From an uncultured Roseobacter sp. (lineage in GTDB: Bacteria; Pseudomonadota; Alphaproteobacteria; Rhodobacterales; Rhodobacteraceae): a stretch of 64,000 nucleotides of DNA. A program made the translations under genes and the position numbers. Shown one piece after another: positions 1 through 11,846 of the stretch (positions within the stretch are counted from its first letter, which is position 1; every line of letters begins with the position of its first letter). The DNA is taken from positions 186,001 to 250,000 of the forward strand of contig NZ_CANLYL010000002.1 of assembly GCF_947495275.1 (NCBI RefSeq), in the 5' to 3' direction. The notes beneath the pieces are model-generated. The model did no database searches. It had not been told where the DNA came from and saw only the letters and a program-made list of their open reading frames with translations.

Positions 1-146
1 GTAAGTTGCATTGATTCGAATTGTTCGTATGGCATCAGGACGAAGCGCGGTTTTCCGTGCCAGGTGATCGTGACAGGTTCGCATTGAGCGGCCTCAAGAA
101 TCTCCATCGTGTTTCACCTCAATTGGGTCATCGAAAAGACCTTCAT
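1..146 (-). pseudogene. Phd/YefM-type antitoxin, interrupted by a stop, runs off the window
   Basis: Read leftward from the ATG at 146, the translation starts MKVFSMTQLR, meets TGA at 116-114, then continues in the same frame as NTMEILEAAQCEPVTITWHG and KPRFVLMPYEQFESMQ up to the window edge. The pattern (short helix, then a LEAA..EPVTIT.HG.P.FVLM..E.FE block) is that of Phd/YefM antitoxins, DNA-binding proteins that neutralise a partner toxin and repress their own operon. The TGA sits where an Arg or Gln codon is expected, so one CGA or CAA to TGA change explains it. A shorter product could start at the ATG at 107 but would lack the N-terminal DNA-binding strand. A toxin would lie beyond base 1. 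It follows the phosphoesterase stop by 18 nt, so it may be the third gene of that operon. Confidence 0.6.
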
Positions 147-164
147 ATTTGTCCTCATCGCCAA

Positions 165-734
165 TTAAGTGTCGAGTTCTGCCCGGTGTTCAACATCGAC
201 CCAGTGCTTGTTTGGCAGCAACTTCTTTGCCCGTCGCGCTATATCGTCAAAGGTGACTGGCATGAAGTTCCACACATCAACCCCAACATTCACCGAATTT
301 CGCGACCCTCGCCAGTTCTCATGAACGTGGCCGAAGAACTGCAGCCCGCCCTTACGAGCGTGGTTCCAGGTGATCATTGGATAATGGCACAATGTGTTGG
401 GCTGGTTCTGGGGTCCATCTCGTAGTTCTGCTAAGTGGGAGATTGACTTCCAAGGCAGTTCCAGCGTTGGCTTATGGTCGTGGTTGCCAATAATCAAATG
501 ATGTTCTGCACCTGGCAACTGGTTGAAAATTTGTTCGACATAAGCGCTTTCTTTCGCTTTGGCACCGAAGGCAAAATCACCCAGAATCCAAAACTGGTCT
601 TCTGGTTTGACCAGCTTCCACATGTTTTCCAACAACACCGCGTCCATCTGGGCGACAGAAGTAAATGGGCGATCGCAGAAACCTATGATGTTTTCATGGC
701 CAAAATGCGTGTCAGCCGTATACCAGATTGTCAT
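165..734 (-). CDS. Calcineurin-like metallophosphoesterase
   Basis: 189-aa protein with the di-metal phosphoesterase signatures in order: DTHFGH near residue 8, GDF near 52, GNHDH near 83, a single His in CHYPM near 116 and GHVHENW near 135. These residues bind two metal ions and the phosphate. The family hydrolyses phosphomonoesters or diesters; the substrate cannot be told from sequence. The length is typical of the compact single-domain cytosolic members often found on phages and mobile islands. It lies 20 nt downstream of the 139-aa gene and just upstream of the broken antitoxin, so all three probably share a leftward transcript. The function class is secure, the physiological role is not. 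Confidence 0.88.
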   Translation of the reverse strand: MTIWYTADTHFGHENIIGFCDRPFTSVAQMDAVLLENMWKLVKPEDQFWILGDFAFGAKAKESAYVEQIFNQLPGAEHHLIIGNHDHKPTLELPWKSISHLAELRDGPQNQPNTLCHYPMITWNHARKGGLQFFGHVHENWRGSRNSVNVGVDVWNFMPVTFDDIARRAKKLLPNKHWVDVEHRAELDT

Positions 735-754
735 TGTGTGTTTACTCGGTTCGT

Positions 755-1174
755 TCAGCCTACAAGGGCCCGAAATTCTTCGGGGGTGTAGTCGAGTGCT
801 AGTAATTTTAGCAGGAGCAGATCAAGCGGCAACTGCGTCTCCATCCAACGTATTTCCTCAGATTGGATGCTCAGATTGTATCCGCCATGTTTGTTGACGC
901 TGACGCTTATCTCGCGCCCATTGAAGAAATCCCAAAGTTTCAAAAGGAGGGGAAAGTCTTCGTTATCAGGATGGACGGATATGCCGGAGCATTGCGCCAG
1001 AATATCTGGAACAACTGCCATCAACGTGTCCCAGCTTAGTTGCTGTTGAGCCGCATCTAATGGCGTTGCTTCTGGGCTCGCCGCCAGAACTGTAGACTTG
1101 AGCGCGAAGACAGGTCCAAATTTGGATTGGATGTCATCAATAGTGTTCGCGTTTTCATTGGTAGCCTTAGCCAT
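755..1174 (-). CDS. Hypothetical protein, 139 aa
   Basis: I do not recognise a family. The protein has no signal peptide and no membrane segment. It has a Ser/Thr/Ala-rich N-terminus, a middle with several Trp and Leu residues (LLLKLWDFFNGREISVSV near 78-95), and a Leu-rich C-terminal helix (PLDLLLLKLLALDYTPEEF near 116-134). It is the first gene of a probable three-gene leftward operon with the phosphoesterase and the damaged antitoxin. It is divergent from the XRE regulator across a 107-nt gap that carries a perfect palindrome, so that regulator may control it. Confidence 0.6.
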   Translation of the reverse strand: MAKATNENANTIDDIQSKFGPVFALKSTVLAASPEATPLDAAQQQLSWDTLMAVVPDILAQCSGISVHPDNEDFPLLLKLWDFFNGREISVSVNKHGGYNLSIQSEEIRWMETQLPLDLLLLKLLALDYTPEEFRALVG

Positions 1175-1216
1175 AGCATCTCGATCTCACCTTCTATCAT
1201 GAAGTTCTTCGGTACA

Positions 1217-1228
1217 TCGCAATTGCGA
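1217..1228. promoter_or_regulatory. Perfect 12-bp palindrome, candidate XRE operator
   Basis: The sequence TCGCAATTGCGA equals its own reverse complement. It lies in the 107-nt gap between the leftward operon (start 1174) and the rightward XRE gene (start 1282). Small XRE repressors usually bind short palindromes next to their own promoter. A degraded version of the same stretch lies before the decayed tandem copy, near 1650-1665. Confidence 0.45.
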
Positions 1229-1281
1229 ATGTATGTTAAAACAGGTAGAGTTAAAACAGGCGTTCATCAATAGACTTATGT

Positions 1282-1506
1282 GTGAAAAGAACGCCCAAAA
1301 GCCCTCTCAGAGACATTGTCGCCCGAAACTTGCGAAAGTTGAGGGCAGAACGCGGCTGGTCTCAGGAACGCCTTGCCGAAGAAGCAGGGTTGAATCGTAC
1401 TTACTTGAGTGCGGTAGAGCGGTCTGAGCAGAACATTTCCATTGATAACCTTTACCGCGTAGCTGTCGGACTAGACATTGAAAGCTGGGTACTCCTGAGA
1501 GATTAG
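1282..1506 (+). CDS. XRE-family helix-turn-helix regulator, 74 aa
   Basis: This is essentially one Cro/C1-type HTH domain. Residues 10-66 read as the five-helix fold, with the turn in SQERLAEEAGLNRTYLSAVE and the conserved tail ISIDNLYRVAVGLDIE. Start: GTG at 1282 (gtg aaa aga acg). The length is typical of compact phage-like or restriction-modification-controller-like regulators. No toxin or methylase lies beside it here, so the target is unknown; the palindrome at 1217-1228 is the obvious candidate. A decayed copy of gene and upstream region follows at 1718, showing a past tandem duplication. Confidence 0.85.
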   Translation: MKRTPKSPLRDIVARNLRKLRAERGWSQERLAEEAGLNRTYLSAVERSEQNISIDNLYRVAVGLDIESWVLLRD

Positions 1507-1717
1507 CTCACATTTCGTTGGAGAGTAGTTTCTGCTGGAGGCCCAGGTCATCTTCAAGATACATGAGAGCAATTTTTTCGATTGTCTATGCATGCATCTG
1601 ATCGACTATCGATCACGCGATCTATTCTACATCCTGCACTGTTCATCGCAATGGGCAATCGCGAATGTATCTTAAGACAGGTATGGCCAAATACGGTTTT
1701 CTTGAATGGAACGCTCT

Positions 1718-1905
1718 ATGGAGAAAACGCCTAAGCGCCAATTGCGGAATATCGCCGCCCATTGGAAAGGCTAGCCGAAAAGGCGGGTTTCGACCGAACG
1801 CACTAAGGTGCGGTGGAAAGTTCTGAGCAGATTTTTCTAATCGAAAATGTCTAGTGAATCGCTAACGGACTAGTGATTGAGAGCCAAGCATTGCCAAAAT
1901 AGACG
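1718..1905 (+). pseudogene. Decayed tandem copy of the XRE regulator
   Basis: Starting at ATG 1718 the DNA parallels the intact gene at 1282: it encodes MEKTPKRQLRNIAA, then a region matching LAEKAGFDRTH, then a match to the AVE(R)SEQ segment. In-frame stops (for example the TAG in aaggctagccg and the TAA in cactaaggtg) and a deletion destroy it. The upstream region is duplicated too: gcgaatgtat(c/g)tta(a/g)(a/g)acaggta occurs near 1225 and again near 1663. It cannot make a functional repressor. Confidence 0.75.
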
Positions 1906-2248
1906 TGAAATCAGAAAGTTATTTTACCAGGGGCATTTCGATAGTGTCAAAAGTAGAATCAATTTTTAACCTAATGATAACAGAACCTTAGGATTGATTT
2001 TTGAGATCCTTGGAGTTAGCGTTAGCCAGCAATTGTTGGTCGTTACTTTGGAGTAGAACAAAGAGGTCTAAAATAGAGAAGAGACCAAGGCGCGGCTTAG
2101 AGCCCGAAGCGGACGGTTCGGTGTACAGAAAAGGCCTGATTTAACAAATCTTAGGTTTTGGTGCCGCTAGCGACCGAAATCGGCGCTGATTGTCATTGTC
2201 AATCTACGTCGAACGAATCTGAAAATCGGTGCTGAAAGAAATTGAAAT
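1906..2248. other. Gene-free stretch before the recombinase operon
   Basis: AT-richer than its surroundings. No coding signal, tRNA or clear inverted repeat was found. If the recombinase operon is a mobile element, its left end and promoter should lie here or within the preceding decayed XRE copy. Confidence 0.4.
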
Positions 2249-3481
2249 TTGCGAAAGACAAACCTTCCTATTAAGCTCCGCTGTTTTCAAACCGTTGATG
2301 GCAAAGCACGCGGTATCTTGCTGAACGCGCGAACTTTTGAACCGTCAATCGCCGGATCTCTATACGAGACGTCCCTCAGCCGAAAGTACGCGTCTCCCAA
2401 CACGCTCTACCATGCACTCAGTTCCGCGCAGATTCTTCTCTCCTGGGCACACGACGTCGGCATCAATCTCGAGCGACGGCTTCTCTACGGTGCTTCGCTT
2501 GAACCGCAGGACATCGAAGCTTTTGGCCATTGGCTCGAGGCGCACCACAGGGGACAGGCGAACACGCTTACCCGCGCTGGCATAAGAACCTACAACGCTC
2601 ACCTGGATGGCGCTCGACGAATGGTGACGTGGTTCGTCGACAGGTACTACGACGCTTCTCACGCGCAACTGCCTCGCGGAGTGTTGCTTGACGCTCTCCA
2701 CGAAACCTCAAAGCGCGCTTGGAAGAACCAGCGGATCAAGGACGCCGCCGACCCGGAGGCACCCGACATCTCCGATGACGACATCTCAGCCATCGAGACC
2801 TTTCTGCGAAACGCTGCAATATGCAAGTATCCTGAACGGCGATGGATCCGCGCGTATCTGATTTGGCGACTAGCTATCGAGTTTGGTCTGCGCATCGGTG
2901 AGATTCTGGCACTCCGGCTGGAAGACTGCCCTAGTCGCGTAAATCCAGCTTTCAGAGTTGTCCGCATAGAAGATCGCGATGTAATATCGGATTCTCGGAG
3001 TGTCTACTCGCCACGCCCGAAGACCTCAGGGCGTGATCTAGCGCCAATTCTGTCGAACACCGTTTTTCCTCGTCTCGTGATCGACTACCAAGCTGATCAC
3101 CGATTGAAGCGCGTTCATCGTGCAAATGGACGGGTTGTCTGGCGCCCTGTTTTGTCCCATACTTATCTACTCGTCAACGATGATGGCGATCCTTTATCTG
3201 TCTTTACTGCGCGCAATCTCGCGAAGGCGATCGAAAAAAACACTGGTGTTTCCTTTACATGGCACCTTGCGCGCCATGCCTTTTTCAATCGCACATATGG
3301 CGCCGTTGCGGCCATCGAGAATCCAACCCAGCGCACAACACGCCTCAGCGACCTCGTTTATTGGGGCGGTTGGCGTGATCCAAGAAGCCTCGACTGCTAT
3401 GTGCGACGCGTACGCAAAGAGCGCGCCCGCACAGGCCTCGCTATCTGGAACGGTTCGAATCTTTGGGAGGCCCTTGGATGA
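2249..3481 (+). CDS. Tyrosine recombinase 1 of trio
   Basis: 410-aa site-specific recombinase that would cut and rejoin DNA through a covalent phosphotyrosine. The N-terminal half (about 1-165) is the SAM-like core-binding region. The catalytic half carries all expected residues: Arg215 in GLRIGEIL, a Lys in KTSGR near 258, His339 and Arg342 in WHLARHAFF, Trp375 in GGWRDP and the nucleophile Tyr384 in LDCYVRR. The enzyme therefore looks active. Start: TTG at 2249, chosen because the frame opens there; no strong Shine-Dalgarno sequence is visible, so a slightly later start is possible. First gene of the operon; its stop overlaps the next start. Confidence 0.88.
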   Translation: MRKTNLPIKLRCFQTVDGKARGILLNARTFEPSIAGSLYETSLSRKYASPNTLYHALSSAQILLSWAHDVGINLERRLLYGASLEPQDIEAFGHWLEAHHRGQANTLTRAGIRTYNAHLDGARRMVTWFVDRYYDASHAQLPRGVLLDALHETSKRAWKNQRIKDAADPEAPDISDDDISAIETFLRNAAICKYPERRWIRAYLIWRLAIEFGLRIGEILALRLEDCPSRVNPAFRVVRIEDRDVISDSRSVYSPRPKTSGRDLAPILSNTVFPRLVIDYQADHRLKRVHRANGRVVWRPVLSHTYLLVNDDGDPLSVFTARNLAKAIEKNTGVSFTWHLARHAFFNRTYGAVAAIENPTQRTTRLSDLVYWGGWRDPRSLDCYVRRVRKERARTGLAIWNGSNLWEALG

Positions 3482-5016
3482 AGTTCGATACATCATCAGG
3501 TTTCTGGATCGACGCTCAGGGCGCCGGCTTCATCAAGAACGAGTTTAACCCCACTCGTCCAATTTACCTGTCAGTTAGCGAGAAGAGTTGGTCTGGGGTT
3601 CATCTTCAGAAAGCCTATACTTTGACTTGGCCGACTGCTCTCGACCCCGACCTTCGAAGGCTTCTGGAGAGCGTACTGAAAGATCGAATGCGGCACATGG
3701 CCCCGTCCGCGCTCGAAAAGTATCGGCGAGTAATCGACGCGATGGTGCGTCTTCGCGTCGATGGCCGCCGGCTCCGAAGCGACGATCTTCTCGATGGCGA
3801 AATCGTCCGCGCACTGTGGGATACGCTGCCCAGTGATCTGCGACCTCATATGCGTGGCTTGCTTCCAGATCTCATCGCGCCGCAAAATCCTCACGCAGCC
3901 TACGCAATGTCGCTTCTTTTGAAAGACTGGAAAGCCAAGAGGCGGCTGAATTGGAGGCGGTCGGTTCTTGAGTGGGACCCACGGGACGGATCCATGACAT
4001 CTGCGGAGCTGGAAGTATTGCGCGTCCATCTATCTCCGCCAGCGTCGGAAACGCCTTATGAGCATTTTGCACGTCTTGTGGTCCGGCTTACCCTCACGAC
4101 GTTGCGCCGGCCCTCTCAGTTGATCTCGATTGAGGCGGGCGGACTGCGCCGCATCTCGACCACAGTCGGGACGACAACGGATCTTCGGATCCCAACAGGC
4201 AAGGCGCAAACTGGAGCTCAAGCGCCCCGGCTACCTATTCCCGTCGATCTGGCCAACGATATCGATGCCTGCCGCTCGCGACCTGAGATTGTGAGCTCGC
4301 CGGTTTCTGATGAGGTGCTCCTTCCCTTCGCAATTGGGTCATACGATAAAAGAACTCGCGGCGGCGTCGCGAAACGCGTAATCGCGCCCAACGCCAGCCA
4401 CGCCAAAGCGGCGTCTCAATCGTGGGTTAAAGGCCAATGCATCATCAGCCCCCGCACAGGAAAACCGCTATACATCAATCTGCGCAGGATCCGACACACG
4501 GGCGCGACGCACCTAGCAATGCAAGGTTATCCGCTCGAACTCATCGCCGACATTCTCGAGCACGAGAGTACGGTCTCCACACGCTACTACATCGATGCTG
4601 TGGGTGCCGAATTCCTTCCGGCGTTTGAAAGGGTCGATAGCAGCCTCGGAGGGCGGTTCTCAATGATGCGCGACGCATGGTTCAATGGCCGCGTTGTTGA
4701 CAGAAAAGACGCACCAAACCGTCCTATTATTGTTCCTGACACCAACGCGCCCGCGGCTGTTGGTGCCTGCGGAAAAGGCGGTTCCTGCTCTGTGCACCCA
4801 CTCTTCAGTTGCTATTCCTGCGAGCATTTCCTCGCGTTCCGAGATGCCAATCACCAGAAGGTGCTGGACTTCGTTGAGGCAGAATATGTGCGCTGGCGTG
4901 CGGTAGAGGCTAGCAACTCTCGATCCAAGGCCATCAAGGACTTTGACCGCATTGCGGCAAGCGTACGCGAAATCATGTCCCTAATCGACGGAGAGACTGT
5001 GGATGGCCACCGCTGA
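3478..5016 (+). CDS. Tyrosine recombinase 2 of trio, with C-terminal Cys cluster
   Basis: 512 aa from ATG 3478, preferred over the TTG at 3463 because it overlaps the previous stop as ATGA and has GGGAGG about 8 nt upstream. The catalytic half shows Arg211 (TLRRPSQL), Lys242, Arg339 with His340 (RRIRHTGATHLA), His362 (LEHEST) and Tyr370/Tyr371 as nucleophile. The usual box-II His three residues before Arg339 is Arg336, a substitution to note. The C-terminus adds a four-Cys cluster (Cys431, 437, 445, 448; CSVHPLFSCYSCEHF), a probable zinc site. I recall similar Cys tails in Tn554-type recombinases. The role within the trio (strand exchange or accessory) is open. Confidence 0.85.
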   Translation: MKFDTSSGFWIDAQGAGFIKNEFNPTRPIYLSVSEKSWSGVHLQKAYTLTWPTALDPDLRRLLESVLKDRMRHMAPSALEKYRRVIDAMVRLRVDGRRLRSDDLLDGEIVRALWDTLPSDLRPHMRGLLPDLIAPQNPHAAYAMSLLLKDWKAKRRLNWRRSVLEWDPRDGSMTSAELEVLRVHLSPPASETPYEHFARLVVRLTLTTLRRPSQLISIEAGGLRRISTTVGTTTDLRIPTGKAQTGAQAPRLPIPVDLANDIDACRSRPEIVSSPVSDEVLLPFAIGSYDKRTRGGVAKRVIAPNASHAKAASQSWVKGQCIISPRTGKPLYINLRRIRHTGATHLAMQGYPLELIADILEHESTVSTRYYIDAVGAEFLPAFERVDSSLGGRFSMMRDAWFNGRVVDRKDAPNRPIIVPDTNAPAAVGACGKGGSCSVHPLFSCYSCEHFLAFRDANHQKVLDFVEAEYVRWRAVEASNSRSKAIKDFDRIAASVREIMSLIDGETVDGHR

Positions 5017-7186
5017 GGCTCTCCGAGACCTTGTTCGCGGCGCTGTTGGATCTGGAGCTATCGTCCACGCGTTGCCGCGCTATGTTTCCGGGGCACCAGA
5101 GTGGCTCAATCCTGAGGCCGACATCTGGAACGTCGCGTCGCTCCATCCGCGGTCAGACAAGAAGACCTGGTCTCTCGACTTTCGACGCGTCGTGCATCCA
5201 GAACTCAGAGCAGTCGCCCGCGCGCACGCGCTTTGGCAAATCGTCGAACAACGGGTCGGTCCTTCTACTCTAACTGGTGCGCTCAGCGTCTTCATTTATC
5301 TTGGTAATCAGCTTGGTGCACGACCTCTGAAGACCTTGAAAACCGAAGACTTCCACGCCGCAGAACTTGAAATCCGTAGTCATTACTCTGCAGGAACCAG
5401 TGCGCGCATGAATGCCGGTTTGCAACGCGTCAGCGCATGGCTCAACCGTCAAACCGAGCTTCGGCTGGATTACACCTCAACGCTTCGTGTGCCTTTCGCT
5501 CACGGGCGTATGGTGACCGACGACAGACGCGACGCCAAGCTGCTACCAGACGCCGTCGTTGCCGATCTCCTTGGTGCTCGACATAAGTCTAATCTCTCTG
5601 ACCGCGACCGCTTTTATCTCGCCGCGACCTCAATCTCGGTCGCCACCGGCTTCCGGTTGTGCGAGCTTCTTACGCTCCCCGCCGATTGCCTCATTCACGA
5701 CCAAGGTGTCCTCCTGGTGCGCAGCTTCGTCTCGAAGAGTGGCAAGGCAGCACCGCGGCCTGTTCCGGCGGAAATGGCTGACATAGTGATCGACGCGATT
5801 GGTTGCATCCGGGCAATCACTCAGCCCGCACGTGAACAGGCGCGAGCCTGGGCAAATGAAGTACCAATAGATTGGATGTCTGTCGTACGGGATCCCGATC
5901 CTACGGCATTCAAGTATTTCGTAAGGCGCTGGCTAGGCGATTGGATCACAGATCCAGACCACAGGATGATCGACCAGCATTGTGCATATTTCTCGCAGGG
6001 TGATCGATCCCAATGGGTGCTTCTGACCGAACTTCTCGACATTCACAAAGGCAACATTTCAGCTATCTCGCGAAAGCTCAGCATGGCCCGGGTCAGCGTG
6101 ACAAAGTTAGTCAGGCAACTTGAAGCGTCAAAACGCAATGAGGTTTATCTCGGATCTAAGAATTCGAACTCCCAGCGCGCTTTCGACACCGACCGTCGTT
6201 TTCCGTCAATCGCCGCCTTTGGTAGACTAACCGGCCTAAACCTTCAAAAGTCCCCTCGAAACGCGCTCTTGATGGAACTCGTTGATGAGGCTCGGAATGC
6301 GCAGCTCTCGCAATCTGAATTTCACCGACCTCATCGTAACGCAGTTTTGGAAGAGCAATATCGCGTCACGCCGGAAGTGCTTCTCCACCCGGAGACTGGT
6401 GACGTAGTGTTGCGCTTGGACGAAGCTCTGTTCGTCTTATTCAAGAACCAGCTATCGTCGGGCCACGCCATGGTCAAAGGGAGGATCAAAGCGGTGTCGA
6501 TCAACCAATTCAACCACTGGTTGGGCGGTTATGCACGCGACCGCGGTACGGGAAAGCCCGGGGACGCTGTGTGCGCGCGGTTGGGAATCCTTGACCCAAG
6601 GACTGAAGAGCCGGCAAAATTTACCAATCACGACTTCCGCCATTGGCTCGCGACCGCCTATGAGAATGGCGGTCTGTCACAAACGCAGATCGCGACCCTT
6701 TTCAATCGATCATCCCCCTCTTCAAACTCAGTCTACGACCACACCAACAGCGTGGTGAGACGTGAGCGCCTGAAGGACGCCATGGCCGATGGCCTCCTCA
6801 TTGGGCACGCCCCCGCGGCATACGCACAGATCGCTAAGGAAAGTGCCGAAGAGGCTACTGAGTATCTTGAGGCCGCCATCAAGTTCCAAAACCCGATGCC
6901 GCACGGTATCTGCCGTCTGAACTGGGCGTTGGAGCCGTGCCCTCACGCGCTGAGTTGCTTCAGCTGCGGCGATCTACGTGACGATGAATCCGAGCCCTGC
7001 GAGCACTTGATCATCGACGCGAATGACGCCGCGCACCTCGATGAGGTCGCGCAAATTCACCGCAACGCCTTATCGATCTCCGAAATCTTGGAAGAGGACG
7101 GCGCTGAGGGAAGCCCGCAGTATATTAAGTTTCAACGGATTGCCCGCTCCACGCTCACTATTCTAAAAAAGGCCGGACGCTCATGA
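5003..7186 (+). CDS. Tyrosine recombinase 3 of trio, catalytic domain split by an HTH insertion
   Basis: 727 aa, far longer than usual integrases (about 300-450). Arg218 in GFRLCELLTLP forms box I; His543 and Arg546 (NHDFRHWLAT) and Tyr578 (SVYDHT) form box II. The spacing between Arg218 and His543 is 325 residues rather than the usual 100-150. The inserted stretch contains a clear helix-turn-helix near 340-375 (DIHKGNISAISRKLSMARVS). The C-terminus has a Cys cluster (Cys637, 646, 652, 655, 666). Comparable length and Cys-rich tails occur in TnpB of Tn554 (about 630 aa). Start ATG 5003 overlaps the previous gene by 14 nt. Probably active; the HTH may read part of the att site. Confidence 0.82.
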   Translation: MATAEALRDLVRGAVGSGAIVHALPRYVSGAPEWLNPEADIWNVASLHPRSDKKTWSLDFRRVVHPELRAVARAHALWQIVEQRVGPSTLTGALSVFIYLGNQLGARPLKTLKTEDFHAAELEIRSHYSAGTSARMNAGLQRVSAWLNRQTELRLDYTSTLRVPFAHGRMVTDDRRDAKLLPDAVVADLLGARHKSNLSDRDRFYLAATSISVATGFRLCELLTLPADCLIHDQGVLLVRSFVSKSGKAAPRPVPAEMADIVIDAIGCIRAITQPAREQARAWANEVPIDWMSVVRDPDPTAFKYFVRRWLGDWITDPDHRMIDQHCAYFSQGDRSQWVLLTELLDIHKGNISAISRKLSMARVSVTKLVRQLEASKRNEVYLGSKNSNSQRAFDTDRRFPSIAAFGRLTGLNLQKSPRNALLMELVDEARNAQLSQSEFHRPHRNAVLEEQYRVTPEVLLHPETGDVVLRLDEALFVLFKNQLSSGHAMVKGRIKAVSINQFNHWLGGYARDRGTGKPGDAVCARLGILDPRTEEPAKFTNHDFRHWLATAYENGGLSQTQIATLFNRSSPSSNSVYDHTNSVVRRERLKDAMADGLLIGHAPAAYAQIAKESAEEATEYLEAAIKFQNPMPHGICRLNWALEPCPHALSCFSCGDLRDDESEPCEHLIIDANDAAHLDEVAQIHRNALSISEILEEDGAEGSPQYIKFQRIARSTLTILKKAGRS

Positions 7187-7761
7187 ATAAACGACCTACC
7201 GCACGAAACCTAAGCACTCGGCCGGAGCAAGGTCCCAAATCACTCCAGGCGCCCAAGCCTCGCCAGCTTCGGGGCGAGGGCTTGAAAGTGCGCATCGAAG
7301 ATGCCGTGCGCGAACATGCGCGCGACCTGGGGGACCGGATCGATCCGAAGCGTGTCTCGATGAAGGCGATCGCAGAACGCGTGCCATGCTCACGTACGAC
7401 GTTGCTGAAATACGAAACGGTTGTTGCAGACGCGTTGCGCGATCTGGGTTATCGCGCAGCGCGATGTTCCGGTCAGGCACGTACCGAAGCGCTCGCCCAC
7501 CGTGAAGAACTACACAAGGAAGAAATCGCAGTTCTGAAAGCTGAACTGGCGGCTTTGCGTTCCCATCACGCCGAGCTGTACGGGCGGTTCCTAATGCGGT
7601 CGGCACCTGTCGCGGCGCTAGTGCACGACGAAGCCATCGCGGTTTCGCAACGCGACGGACGCTGCGTTCTATGCGGAGGCTTGCCACCTAATTCGGAGGG
7701 TGCAAACCTGGTCGAACTCTCAACCACCGCCTCCTGCTTCAAAACTCGAAAGAGAACATAG
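7183..7761 (+). CDS. TnpC-like HTH/coiled-coil/CxxC accessory protein
   Basis: 192 aa, start ATG 7183 overlapping the previous stop as ATGA. Order of parts: a basic, disordered N-terminus (1-35); a helix-turn-helix near 57-85 (VSMKAIAERVPCSRTTLLKY); a coiled coil near 100-135 (HREELHKEEIAVLKAELAAL); then a CVLCGG zinc-knuckle-like CxxC at 161-164. The HTH-plus-coiled-coil plan and last place in a recombinase operon match the small TnpC of Tn554, which influences transposition frequency and orientation. The C-terminal CxxC extension makes it longer than TnpC (about 125 aa). It probably organises the recombinases on DNA; this is inference from position and form. Confidence 0.7.
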   Translation: MNKRPTARNLSTRPEQGPKSLQAPKPRQLRGEGLKVRIEDAVREHARDLGDRIDPKRVSMKAIAERVPCSRTTLLKYETVVADALRDLGYRAARCSGQARTEALAHREELHKEEIAVLKAELAALRSHHAELYGRFLMRSAPVAALVHDEAIAVSQRDGRCVLCGGLPPNSEGANLVELSTTASCFKTRKRT

Positions 7762-8439
7762 CAAATCCTAAGAACCACGAAAACGCCCGCTCGGCCGTCA
7801 CTGACGAGGCTTAAATGCTGGTCCTTCCGGCACCGCTCGTTCGTTTTCACATCGCTATGATAATCTTAGAACAATACTATAATCTGTTCATCTGAAAGTC
7901 TGTGTTTCAATGCCCATGTTTTGATCGGTTGAATCCCTAACACTTCAACGGCCTGTCATCAGGTAACAAAACCACTCGAGACGAGAGAACCAGCGTGGCA
8001 TTAAGTTCCTCCTGAGTCCCCTAGGTCTTTGATACTGTTGTCAGTTTTGGAGTGGTTGCAACGTAAGTGAACACTACAAATGCCGAGTATCTGGACGGAT
8101 AGGTTAGGTGTTTTCGACGCAAGTTGTTGTTTTGATGAATTTATTAACTAAGTGGTCTAAGTAATTGCGCTGATAACAAATGTAGTTAGCCGCTTGATAA
8201 TGCAATCTGTGGTGATGTGAAGTGACCCATAGTTTGCCCATTTCGTTCTAACTTGGGTCCATTATCTACACATAGCTTGTACATTGAGCGGCTTCACAAC
8301 GATGCTTTCTGGGTGAAGCCGTCTCTATTTTGAGTATGGGGTTGAGGAGGTTTTTGGACGCGAAAATCATGCTTTGGTCACACCAAAAGCAGCGAAAATC
8401 ATTCGAGACATGCGTGATAATTTAAATGGAATCAGGGCC
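7762..8439. other. Gene-free stretch after the recombinase operon
   Basis: AT-rich, no convincing reading frame. The right end of the element is likely to be here. The only clear structure is the hairpin at 8289-8321. Confidence 0.4.
8289..8321. terminator. Stem-loop, possible terminator
   Basis: CGGCTTCAC (8289-8297) pairs perfectly with GTGAAGCCG (8313-8321) across a 15-nt loop, followed by TCTCTATTTT. The stem is moderately GC-rich and the T-run imperfect. It could end rightward transcription from the recombinase operon, though it lies about 530 nt past the last stop. Confidence 0.35.
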
Positions 8440-8698
8440 TTAAAGCCGATCATCAGGTGGCACGGCCTTGATGACTGCTTCGAAGAAGTGTTCCGTCGGA
8501 ACATCAAGCGCCCGCGCTATGATCACCAATTCCGGTACATCAATACATCGCTGACCTGACTCGATCCGCGCGACGAACGATTAGATGACACCTCAACCGC
8601 TCAGCCAGGGCTATCTGAGGGAGATTTTTTGACGCCCGGGCAGAAATGAGCACTTCAATGAGCGCCAAGTGTCCGTTGGTGCGAAGTGTTTTGGTCAA
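8440..8698 (-). pseudogene. XRE-family regulator, frameshifted
   Basis: On the minus strand from TTG 8698 the frame reads TKTLRTNGHLALIEVLISAR, then ASKNLPQIALAERLRCHL. After a one-base shift and an in-frame TAA (probably a former CAA) it resumes as SFVARIESGQRCIDVPELVI, then IARALDVPTEHFFEAVIKAV to a TAA at 8442-8440. The region is 259 nt, that is 86 codons plus one base, consistent with a single-base indel. The blocks match the usual order of a Cro/C1 HTH protein. It is unrelated in detail to the XRE gene at 1282. Confidence 0.8.
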
Positions 8699-9721
8699 TT
8701 GAGTGTCCGTAAGATGCCTCGAACACTTCCAGTAATCTCGTTTCCAGACTATCTAGAAATCAGATTATACATATAAGGTGCGCAGTGATACCAGGTATCC
8801 ATACAACCCGTGCAGATACGTTCTTTGGGTGTTTCGCAAAGATCTCTAAGCTCAGCCGCCGTCTACGGCTCGCTTGTGGGGCGTTGAAATGTGAGACTCG
8901 GAGCTTTCGACTCGGTTTCGCAATTGCCGCCAACAAAGCGACCGATTACTTTAATAAGTGTGGCCAATTCAGAACTACGCTTTCGATGCGTTACTGCTGG
9001 ATAGCAAACCAATAGAAGTGGCGGCGCGGCGCTTGCGTCACCGCAAATCCGCCACATAATTAAACCAACCAGATGTGCCAGGCCCTCTCTTAGGTCACGC
9101 TGCTATCTGTGCCAAAACCCCTGACGACGGACACTTTGGACCGGATAGCGAAATTCAACACGCTCTAGCGCGGATTTTGGTGAATGCATCAAGGTTGAGA
9201 TGGGCTGCGGCGATGTGCGCGGTGCCGTCGTAGGGGCTGGTGAAAAATCCCGGATCGTTACCGAGATCGATCGCGAGCGACATGAGCTTGGGACCGTTGC
9301 TACCGTGGCGATGGTCACGACATGGTAGGCCCGGTGCTCCGGTGCATTGCGCATTGTGAAGTCAGGTTGAGCGCAACCTCTCGGTGCGGTTTTGAATTCC
9401 GTAGAACTACAGAGGTTGATTAATCTAGTTTTGCGCTCGCGGTGAATGTCCGTTGTGCGGGCTGTGATCGCAGAATTTGCACACTATGTTCGAAGGCGGC
9501 TTTGGACCGTGAAAGACTTTTGTCCCAGCCGCTTCAGCCAATGCGTTGCCTCTGAGGTCAGCTTACTGCTCCACCAACGCGAGTGGTAAATCGCAGCGAA
9601 CGACATATTTGTTTAGAGCGCCATCGCACCCGATACCTGTTTGTCTTAGAGTGTTGCAGCCGAAGCCCCGGAAAGGGCCAAGCCACATCACCACGAACAG
9701 GCCGCAAAACAGGAGGCGATC
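8699..9721. other. 1-kb region without an intact gene
   Basis: Apart from one dispersed repeat copy (9428-9513) there is a minus-strand open stretch near 9350-9155 that translates as HGSNGPKLMSLAIDLGNDPG followed by FFTSPYDGTAHIAAAHLNLD. It has protein-like composition but no start signal and I do not recognise it; it is probably a gene remnant. The plus-strand frame at 8785-9015 has no supporting signal. Confidence 0.35.
9428..9513 (+). repeat. Dispersed ~85-nt intergenic repeat, copy A
   Basis: Shared core: a TTTTGCGCTCGCGG-like start, GAATGTCCG, a small hairpin built on GGCTG..(C/T)CGCAG, and an end at GGCTTTGGACCG. The same order recurs six more times in this window (copies B-G), always on the plus strand and always between genes or at gene ends. 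It carries no reading frame. Confidence 0.65.
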
Positions 9722-10939
9722 GTGACGGCACTTGCAGCACCGGTTCGCGCACGGGACCGGATAGAGAGCATCGACGTGCTGCGAGGCTTCGCGCTTTTGG
9801 GCATTTTGCTGATGAACATCCAGAGCTATGCGTTGGTTGAGGCGGCCTATTTCGATCCGTCGCAATATGGCGATCTGACCGGCACAAACTGGTGGGTTTG
9901 GGCGCTCAGCCATGCCTTTGCGGATATGAAGTTCATGGCACTGTTTTCGATGTTGTTCGGCGCAGGGATCGTGCTTGTGACGCAGACGCGGCAGGCCAAA
10001 TGTCTCCCCACGCTCGCGCATCACTATAGCAGGAACTTCTGGTTGCTGGTCTTTGGCCTGATCCATGCCTACCTGATCTGGTATGGCGATATCCTCGTGA
10101 CCTATGCGCTTGCGGCTTTTGTGCTTTACTGGCTGCGCAACCTGCGAGCGCTAAGGTTGTTTATTCTCGGGACGGTGTTGCTCAGTATTCCCCTGCTGAT
10201 CAACCTGTCGCTGACACTTGCCCCCCCGGAGGTCCTGAAGGAGGTCGCGGCAGACTTCGCCTACACGATGGAAGAGATCACCGCCGAGCTCACAGCATAC
10301 CGGGGTAGCTGGTCAGAGGCATTCGCGTACCGCATTCCAGCCACCCTGGACATGCACCTTGCCGCTCTCCCAGGTTTCCTCTTTTGGCGGGCGGGCGGTC
10401 TCATGCTGATCGGCATGGGGCTGTTCAAAACCGGTGTTTTGGCGGGGCGTTGCTCTGCGCGGTTCTACATGAAGCTTGCGATCGCGGGGTTGGCGGTCGG
10501 TCTGCCGCTGGTCACTCTCAGCACCCTCAAGCTGACCGAACACGGCTATGATCCCCTCTTCGGTCAGCTGGGGATGGGGATAATTTATAACTACATCGGC
10601 AGCATCGCCATAGCTTTGGCCTATATCGGTGTCGTTATGCGGTTGGTGCAAGGTAAGTGGTTGCCGGGCCTGCAAAAACGGCTTGCGGCGGTCGGGCGAA
10701 CTGCCTTCACCAACTACATCATGCAATCACTGATCTGCACATTCCTTTTCTATGGGTTCGGTATCGGCCTTTTCGGCTATGTTCAACGTTGGGAACAGGT
10801 GCTAATCGTCATTGCAGTTTGGACCTTGCAGATAATCATCGCCCCGCTTTGGCTCGCAAGATTCCGTTTTGGCCCACTGGAGTGGCTCTGGCGTTCGCTT
10901 ACTTACATGCGACTGCAACCGATGCGGCGAAAGACATAA
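9722..10939 (+). CDS. DUF418-family multi-pass membrane protein
   Basis: 405 aa. The start GTG at 9722 follows AGGAGG at 9711-9716, a near-ideal spacing. The N-terminus RIESIDVLRGFALLGILLMN is the hallmark of DUF418/acyltransferase-3-like membrane proteins (YeiB type), with about ten hydrophobic segments to residue 390 and a basic C-terminal tail. The C-terminal block (AAVGRTAFTNYIMQSLICTF and later FGPLEWLWRSLTY) is the DUF418 signature. It acts in the inner membrane; the substrate is unknown, and transport or envelope modification are the usual guesses. It stands alone between repeat copies A and B. Confidence 0.88.
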   Translation: MTALAAPVRARDRIESIDVLRGFALLGILLMNIQSYALVEAAYFDPSQYGDLTGTNWWVWALSHAFADMKFMALFSMLFGAGIVLVTQTRQAKCLPTLAHHYSRNFWLLVFGLIHAYLIWYGDILVTYALAAFVLYWLRNLRALRLFILGTVLLSIPLLINLSLTLAPPEVLKEVAADFAYTMEEITAELTAYRGSWSEAFAYRIPATLDMHLAALPGFLFWRAGGLMLIGMGLFKTGVLAGRCSARFYMKLAIAGLAVGLPLVTLSTLKLTEHGYDPLFGQLGMGIIYNYIGSIAIALAYIGVVMRLVQGKWLPGLQKRLAAVGRTAFTNYIMQSLICTFLFYGFGIGLFGYVQRWEQVLIVIAVWTLQIIIAPLWLARFRFGPLEWLWRSLTYMRLQPMRRKT

Positions 10940-11079
10940 ACTCGAAAGGCACGTTTGCGAATGCGGTATTAAAATCTAATGCCTTTTGGCATGTCTCGAT
11001 TTAAAAATACCAATTAGACGACAGCGGTGGATTTCGTCTTCGTCGGCAAAGTGTGAGATTCAATGCTTCCGGATGATGC

Positions 11080-11158
11080 TGGCGTAGCGAACGTTGGCAA
11101 AGCGAGCTGCAACCGCAGCATTCTGGCACCCACTCGAGTGACCGCTTTGGGGCCGTCC
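11080..11158 (+). repeat. Dispersed intergenic repeat, copy B
   Basis: Contains GCGTAGCGAACGTTGGCAAA, then GCGAGCTGCAACCGCAGCAT, and ends CGCTTTGGGGCCGTCC. GCTGCAACCGCAGC forms a 5-bp stem with a 4-nt loop. It lies in the 370-nt gap between the DUF418 gene and the IS110 relic; nothing else is recognisable there. Confidence 0.65.
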
Positions 11159-11312
11159 TCATCGGTGATTGAAGGATTGCGGCAATCAAGATTCTGCACT
11201 GCCTCAGAGTTAAGCAGAGAGCCCGGGTGATGGTTTAGTTGTAGAAGGACCCAACACGCGGCAGGCCGGTATGGAGATGTGCGGCTTAGGTCCAACTCGG
11301 ATACGCACGCTC

Positions 11313-11846
11313 TTAGGCGCAGGGCCTATGCCTGGTTTTATCGATCCCGTCTCTGACCGCTGCCTGTAACCGATTGAGGGGGACTGTCCCAGAAGGTGCT
11401 ACCAGCCCGTATTCGGCCAGATGCCCACGTAGCGCATTAATTGTTTGGGTTTTTCCGCACGGGCAGGTCAACGGTTCGAAGTGCAATGCCTGATGCCTGT
11501 TTCTATGCACTCTTCACTGCAGCAAAACGCATCGTGGCGCGAGACGCAGCTTCAGCAATTGCTTAAGCGTCATTTGTATCGTTTTTTTGTCGCTTGACGT
11601 AGGTTTTCACGTAGATAGGGGGATCATTTTGACAGTATGCCCAAGAGCTCCAATCTCACGTCCCCAATGATGAGAGTTGGCACACGCCTCCATGGCCACG
11701 TTGCAAGTCGGAATGCCAGCCAGCAGATACAGCAGCTTTGATCGCCGAGCCTTCTTTTTGAAAACCAGCCTCCCATCGGAAGTCGCTCCGTGAACCTTGA
11801 ATATGTTCTTGGCCAAATCTAGGCCAACTATGCTAATCTCTTCCAT
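11313..11846 (-). mobile_element. IS110-family transposase relic
   Basis: On the minus strand from ATG 11846 the frame reads MEEISIVGLDLAKNIFKVHG with the DEDD-type first Asp, continues to GALGHTVKMIP, then needs a frameshift to go on as PIYVKTYVKRQKNDTNDA, a TAA, AIAEAASRATMRFAAVK and, in yet another frame, TINALRGHLAEYGLVAPSGT. These blocks appear in the order found in IS110 transposases. Only the N-terminal half of a ~340-aa protein remains, and the C-terminal transposase_20 domain is missing. IS110 elements lack long terminal repeats, so the boundaries cannot be defined. It is not functional. Confidence 0.8.

Follow-up and report, generated by a model that had tools for sequence, protein, structure and literature searches.

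GInts (Bardaji et al., 2017; PMC5385486) are genomic islands defined by a ginABCD operon for three integrases plus a small protein, and they were later also named as a Tn6571-family transposon (PMC10121019). In the GInts described in 2017, the gin operon marks the attL end of the island and the cargo lies after ginD, and the targets include ssb and a ribonucleotide reductase gene (PMC5385486). Here we describe a locus in a stretch of 64,000 nucleotides from an uncultured Roseobacter sp. (the window; assembly GCF_947495275.1, contig NZ_CANLYL010000002.1, positions 186,001 to 250,000 of the forward strand). We found that four overlapping genes at positions 2249-7761 of the window very probably form the ginABCD recombination operon of an island of GInt type, about 29.4 kb long and inserted at the 3' end of nrdJ. 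The element is GInt-type, divergent and unusually arranged; it is a variant of the kind described in 2017 and not a new class of Tn554/RIT-type element, as a sequence-only reading of the window had proposed. Some alphaproteobacterial GInts are reported in the 2017 paper (PMC5385486), whereas no ginC-ginD pairs in Alphaproteobacteria came out of a 2023 survey (PMC10214605). The ends, target and cargo of a divergent alphaproteobacterial GInt branch are now given, nrdJ is added to the 3'-end targets, and one such island is seen to carry phage-defence genes.

Four overlapping genes encode three tyrosine recombinases and a small protein

The operon consists of four intact open reading frames (ORFs) on the plus strand that overlap in series and encode proteins of 410, up to 517, 727 and 192 amino acids. 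The first gene, ginA (2249..3481, +), encodes a tyrosine recombinase with a TTG start as listed (Pfam Phage_integrase 3.5e-6). The second, ginB (3463..5016, +), encodes a tyrosine recombinase with a cysteine-rich C-terminal region, and its Phage_integrase score (4.7e-6) falls just under the Pfam curated cut-off. The third, ginC (5003..7186, +), encodes a tyrosine recombinase-like protein (Phage_integrase 7.2e-7) with an internal MarR/helix-turn-helix (HTH) stretch (Pfam 8.9e-6) and a cysteine-rich C-terminal region. At the ginD position (7183..7761, +) is a small HTH/CxxC protein, for which Pfam gives a sub-threshold HTH_7 match alone (0.014); its CxxC motif is at residues 161-164 and its middle looks coiled-coil-like by eye. 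When the four proteins were compared with NCBIfam, we obtained generic recombinase models below cut-off and zero matches for the fourth protein, and the PHROGs result was the same. The order A-B-C-D of three tyrosine recombinases and a small protein is thus the GInt order, and the dissimilar recombinases, the overlapping HTH/CxxC protein and its TnpC-like fourth position had all been read correctly from the sequence. There is an ATGA overlap at the C/D junction, and another between ginA and ginB if ginB starts at the alternative ATG at 3478 rather than at 3463; B and C overlap by 14 nt.

Alignment places a candidate catalytic R, (H/R)xxR and Y in each of the three window recombinases. In GinB, R, RRIR, LEH and Y are all there, and in GinC the candidate set is R218, H543, R546 and Y578. 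Across loci, the R, HxxR and Y of GinC are aligned and conserved in 11 of 11 (window included), and part of the catalytic set is missing in GinA of L050 and in GinB of L015 and L050. In the first 10 kb of the window, predicted promoters and terminators showed no excess over shuffles beyond one or two standard deviations.

To compare these proteins with GInts, we built canonical gin profiles from eight GInt-like loci, with the window clade excluded: E. coli plasmid pETN48 (L013, operon after ssb), a P. aeruginosa plasmid (L014), Bosea (L015) and the alphaproteobacterial loci L047-L051. Against all stop-to-stop frames of the window of at least 60 codons, the profiles select ORFs 1, 2 and 3 in order (GinA 5.5e-20, GinB 2.9e-37, GinC 3.2e-44). 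An operational rule for GInts asks for at least one integrase below 1e-5 together with the layout (PMC10121019). The window integrases fall within this rule when profile E-values take the place of BLAST and GInt-like loci, rather than type proteins, serve as references. Layout, target, repeats and the profiles from GInt-like loci all point to membership in the GInts.

The gin genes travel together in other genomes

The nearest relative is a locus of Roseivivax lentus (L003), with identities of 56, 58, 71 and 66% for A to D. A Pseudomonas putida plasmid (L001; 33, 31, 29 and 22%) carries the nearest full-length relative seen outside Alphaproteobacteria. GinC matches at E of 1e-8 or below are present in 6 of 394 family genomes and in 4 of 385 class genomes (own genome included in both counts), and among the five others in the family that of R. 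lentus alone is full length. The A-B-C order is kept in 13 other loci, so the genes do travel together. All four positions are filled by profile in L003, L001, L013, L014, L015, L047, L049, L050 and L051, with a weak D match in L050 (3.6e-8) and an uncertain D position in L015. In L048 and in Mesorhizobium L095, A-B-C are assigned by profile and D by position, and L045 and L046 are A-B-C loci truncated by contig ends. The profiles used for gene order contained the window, L003, L001 and L013-L015, and L045-L051 are independent of them. In 6 of the 13 loci ginA directly follows a known kind of target, which is ssb in L013, L047, L050 and L051 and nrdJ in L003 and L045. On the Bosea plasmid, a 316-aa gene of unknown kind (L015:6891-8521) separates ginC from the likely ginD.

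The island is bounded by att cores at the 3' end of nrdJ

In the window genome (G000), nrdJ encodes a B12-dependent ribonucleotide reductase (C2:162514-164805) and shares the strand of ginA, which begins 23.4 kb to its right. In R. lentus L003 and in genome G364 (L045), ginA comes immediately after nrdJ (TIGR02504). The attL core, AAATGTCAATAGCC, is at the nrdJ 3' end (G000:C2:164797-164810), 21.2 kb left of window base 1. The attR core, AAATGTAGTTAGCC (window 8178..8191, +), forms the right end of the island, and the sequence beyond it resembles the post-nrdJ sequence of a sister species. The island therefore spans C2:164797-194191, or 29.4 kb. The two repeats (AAATGTcaaTAGCC / AAATGTagtTAGCC) are identical at 11 of 14 positions, with three central differences, so that imperfect direct repeats within the 10-17 nt range of GInts are found at a specific target. 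The GInt paper describes 3-nt heteroduplexes, which the central three-position difference fits (PMC5385486).

To assess the right end, we compared it with the nrdJ ends of related genomes. Placed at window 8175, the 28-nt nrdJ end of sister genome G002 has 4 mismatches, whereas the best of 40 shuffles (7.5 kb) has 9, and a 23-mer gives a single match with 2 mismatches and none in 100 shuffles. Right of the core, the window also continues like the post-nrdJ sequence of G005. This includes an XRE-like remnant (~8446-8580; XRE by eye), which is flank and not cargo because G005 has it after nrdJ. When 18 congener nrdJ ends were aligned with attR, 3 (L077, L086, L090) beat 300 of 300 shuffles, which preserved only blocks of two bases.

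A hairpin, AAGTCGCTGACTT, follows directly on the last codons of nrdJ in the window genome. This left-end hairpin (AAGTCnCTGACTT) is at one place only in that genome (2 mismatches or fewer), and it is present in 3 of 3 occupied loci (window genome, L003, L045) as compared to 0 of 26 other nrdJ loci. These 26, each covered for at most about 1.5 kb downstream, comprise the 18 congeners, which have weak partial GinC matches at most, and 8 Roseivivax; the gin search covered the congeners, and among the Roseivivax the empty state is seen for G797 alone, via a neighbour gene. The gene adjoining nrdJ in G797 sits at 767.04 kb in R. lentus, and therefore the R. lentus island is about 18.7 kb; its attR core is a candidate only (~766,874, AACGAATGTCC). 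The ends and target that the sequence-only reading had asked for were thus located, and direct-flank searches of sister genomes gave no empty site. Neither a target within the window nor an nrdJ end ahead of ginA stood out from background when searched for.

Post-nrdJ sequence varies among the 18 congeners (L077-L094) in the manner of an insertion hotspot. Only 3 congener pairs are similar there (tblastx E 1e-5, within 1.5 kb; L086 has just 202 nt). On the reverse strand at window ~1927-1941, 0.3 kb upstream of ginA, TCGAAATG is similar to the nrdJ end, with mismatches at 3 of 15 positions, and there are 8 matches of this quality in the 64-kb window.

Cargo lies between attL and the gin operon

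Because attL is 21.2 kb left of window base 1, window 1..2248 belongs to the island and is the right-hand part of a gene block of about 23 kb between attL and ginA. It holds a Phd-like short reading frame that runs left out of the window (~1-107, -; by eye), a metallophosphatase (165-734, -), an unknown protein (755-1174, -), an XRE HTH gene (1282-1506, +) and a decayed second XRE copy (~1620-1900, +; by eye). In the rest of the block (G000:C2:165-186 kb, L071/L072), Pfam scans identify two Ferritin-like proteins and, with a weak match, a DyP-like one, as well as a group of phosphodiesterase, TatD, DHQ synthase and UbiA proteins that we take to be ebo-like. There are also two Pycsar-type defence sets, one with E2 and PycC (1.2e-173) and the other with WYL, an effector whose best model carries the label TIR (8.1e-98; PycTIR 3.4e-49) and PycC (2.1e-95). 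E. coli GInts have likewise been reported as defence carriers (PMC10121019). These genes contradict the earlier suggestion of a minimal self-mobilising unit with no passenger genes, and the other suggestion made alongside it, the core of a larger island, is the one that the att sites uphold. The flanking XRE and Phd fragments had been taken for cargo; the upstream XRE gene and the Phd-like frame are indeed inside, but the right XRE-like remnant is outside. Between ginD and attR there is a short non-coding right end (7762..8177) with no ORF of at least 60 aa wholly within it.

By analogy with tested GInts, the recombinases and the GinD-like protein would recombine attL with attR to yield a circle. 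This circle would recombine with the nrdJ 3' end, and integration would produce imperfect direct repeats and leave the nrdJ reading frame complete. Excision, circle formation, the part played by each protein and a need for all four genes are expected here on the strength of the GInt paper.

Several results weigh against assigning this element to the GInts at nrdJ. In the search of the window frames, the canonical GinD profile gave no significant match to the fourth protein (0.42). In a profile-profile test, where the canonical GinD set was without L050 and the VPA1267-like set contained P. putida protein L001x, the window D protein had 2.7% probability with canonical GinD as compared to 85% with the VPA1267-like group, in small alignments. 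By this comparison its HTH is nearer to the VPA1267-like group, and a relation of GinD to DUF6262/VPA1267 is no more than suggested. According to published descriptions, GinC has no first Arg (PMC5385486) or is without the catalytic residues (PMC10214605), and these descriptions conflict with the R, HxxR and Y of all 11 aligned GinC proteins. The AlphaFold model of GinC had a mean pLDDT of 41 and was discarded. At attR, the other 15 of the 18 congeners fall short: 2-7 of the 300 shuffles do as well for 4 of them, and at least 18 do so for the remaining 11 (range 2-294). At attL, the nrdJ end of L063 (G791) carries TGTCAATAGCC, as in two occupied sites, without the hairpin, and therefore that part of attL may be native; alternatively, L063 may have kept it as a scar after an element was excised. 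Lastly, the operon does not occupy the attL end with the cargo after ginD, although gin does follow attL in L003 and L045. Since gin is away from the attL end, we file the island as a GInt-type variant and not as a standard GInt.

A VPA1267-like gene and a RecD2-like helicase follow ginD in other GInts

In other loci, we found ginD directly followed by two genes, a small one that is VPA1267/DUF6262-like and one for a RecD2-like helicase: L003 (12738-15214), L047 (1447-3917), L048 (5769-8122), L049 (5681-8349) and L050 (5607-8102). The pair is present in 5 of 8 alphaproteobacterial full-operon loci, a count that includes the window, whose island is without it. L095 has the pair too (8983-11824) and is left out of this count because it was found using a gene of the pair. 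In the interval 7762-8177 of the window, tblastn with the L003 VPA1267-like and helicase genes finds no trace. Pfam DUF6262 is above cut-off for L047 alone; L048 and L050 give weaker matches and L003 gives none. Against NCBIfam VPA1267, the small protein of L047 reaches 2.2e-8, which does not pass that model's cut-off, and the L049 assignment comes from position and from the match of its helicase to that of a gamma-Mobile-Trio (GMT) element (6.4e-59). Annotation does not show the pair in the gamma loci L001, L013 and L014 or in Bosea L015, and L001 has a different helicase.

The same pair follows gmtX in a GMT element of an IncC plasmid (L097:7511-10118). Here VPA1267 matches the GInt-side profile at 6.5e-16, with P. 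putida protein L001x excluded from the VPA1267-like set, and the helicase matches at 6e-138. The GMT comparison that the sequence-only reading had called useful thus uncovers a link via the accessory pair of the relatives, but the pair is absent from the window island. Among the titles and abstract openings surveyed, a set outside which the original GMT paper falls, we found no report linking GInts and GMT through the pair. We speculate, with considerable doubt, that GInts and GMT represent branches of a single recombination machine whose accessory modules can be exchanged. To its recombinase core many elements would add a VPA1267-like DNA-binding protein and a RecD2-like helicase, which would support replicative, copy-out-style excision. 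The window island would then have lost the helicase module and captured cargo on the attL side of gin; the accessible text of PMC5385486 does not describe cargo on that side in GInts. The shared pair offers a testable lead on multi-recombinase excision, sometimes without a detectable empty site.

Alternative explanations for the locus

The locus resembles GInts in its single run of three tyrosine recombinase genes and a small gene, in homologous GinA, GinB and GinC, in insertion at the 3' end of a conserved gene (ssb, ribonucleotide reductase), in short imperfect repeats and in variable cargo that includes defence; it differs in that gin is near attR rather than attL, GinD is not detectably homologous and the clade is divergent. 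In favour of a new class of Tn554/RIT-type element are the Tn554-like layout with a third recombinase and the fact that NCBIfam and Pfam label none of the four proteins beyond generic recombinase, MarR or weak matches. We consider this reading scarcely credible and dropped it, given that ginABCD was published in 2017 with the same layout of three integrases and a small protein (PMC5385486) and that 3 of the 4 genes are detectably homologous to GInt-like loci. By its published description, Tn554 shares a large recombinase and the TnpC-like small protein, but it has two recombinases (TnpA, TnpB) with TnpC as compared to three in the window. RITs share three overlapping tyrosine recombinase genes and are about 3.5 kb with three recombinase genes (PMC3414803), which sets them apart from a 29.4-kb island with a coupled fourth gene. 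Strand-biased circularizing integrative elements (SEs), also compared by description, have a core of four genes, of which the third encodes a large recombinase and the fourth a small protein, and they end in imperfect inverted repeats of 13-19 bp. The second SE gene product lacks the catalytic RHRY residues (PMC10214605), and window GinB keeps R, RxxR, H and Y. It is very unlikely that the operon is a GMT relative. GmtY does match the GinA profile (window included; 2.4e-8), and the IncC-plasmid element shares the accessory pair with other GInts, but that match is the sole one among homologues of gmtY, gmtZ and gmtX: GmtZ is outside the eight best matches of the A, B and C profiles, GmtX against D reaches only 0.17, and the IncC-plasmid record names one gene as recombinase. 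The four window proteins have no GMT-named model in NCBIfam up to E 1, and the copy used presumably included the Gmt core models.

Two further explanations keep the GInt-type assignment and concern how the island arose or whether it still moves. The arrangement could reflect two insertions, a tiny GInt of little beyond ginABCD and a separate gin-less 23-kb island next to nrdJ, with the boundary between them lost. We hold this to be a genuine possibility, if not the expected one: ginA is 23.4 kb from attL yet ginD is 0.4 kb (416 bp) from attR, ginA directly follows attL in L003 and L045, positions 1507-2248 are non-coding with the decayed XRE copy, and TCGAAATG resembles an nrdJ end there, though as one of its 8 matches. 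However, no third att-like site rises above background, no second gin remnant is found at 165-188 kb, the left-end hairpin has its single place in the genome, and there is no integrase among 18 block proteins scanned with Pfam, a subset of the block ORFs. Cargo gained left of gin and two fused insertions both fit the arrangement. It is also rather unlikely that the same GInt-type island has decayed and lost mobility. Both edges have few ORFs, pseudogenes are nearby and the helicase pair of the closest relative is missing, but no gin ORF is disrupted, the candidate catalytic residues are in place and both att cores are readable.

Additional observations near the window island and the helicase pair

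Outside the island, a stretch of ~107-115 bp at window 9024-9138 recurs many times in congeners, with 7 copies listed for G016, and is probably an insertion-sequence end. On a Rhodovastum plasmid (L096:1821-13147), the RecD2-like helicase has other recombinase genes in its neighbourhood, and the layout as annotated is neither GInt nor GMT.

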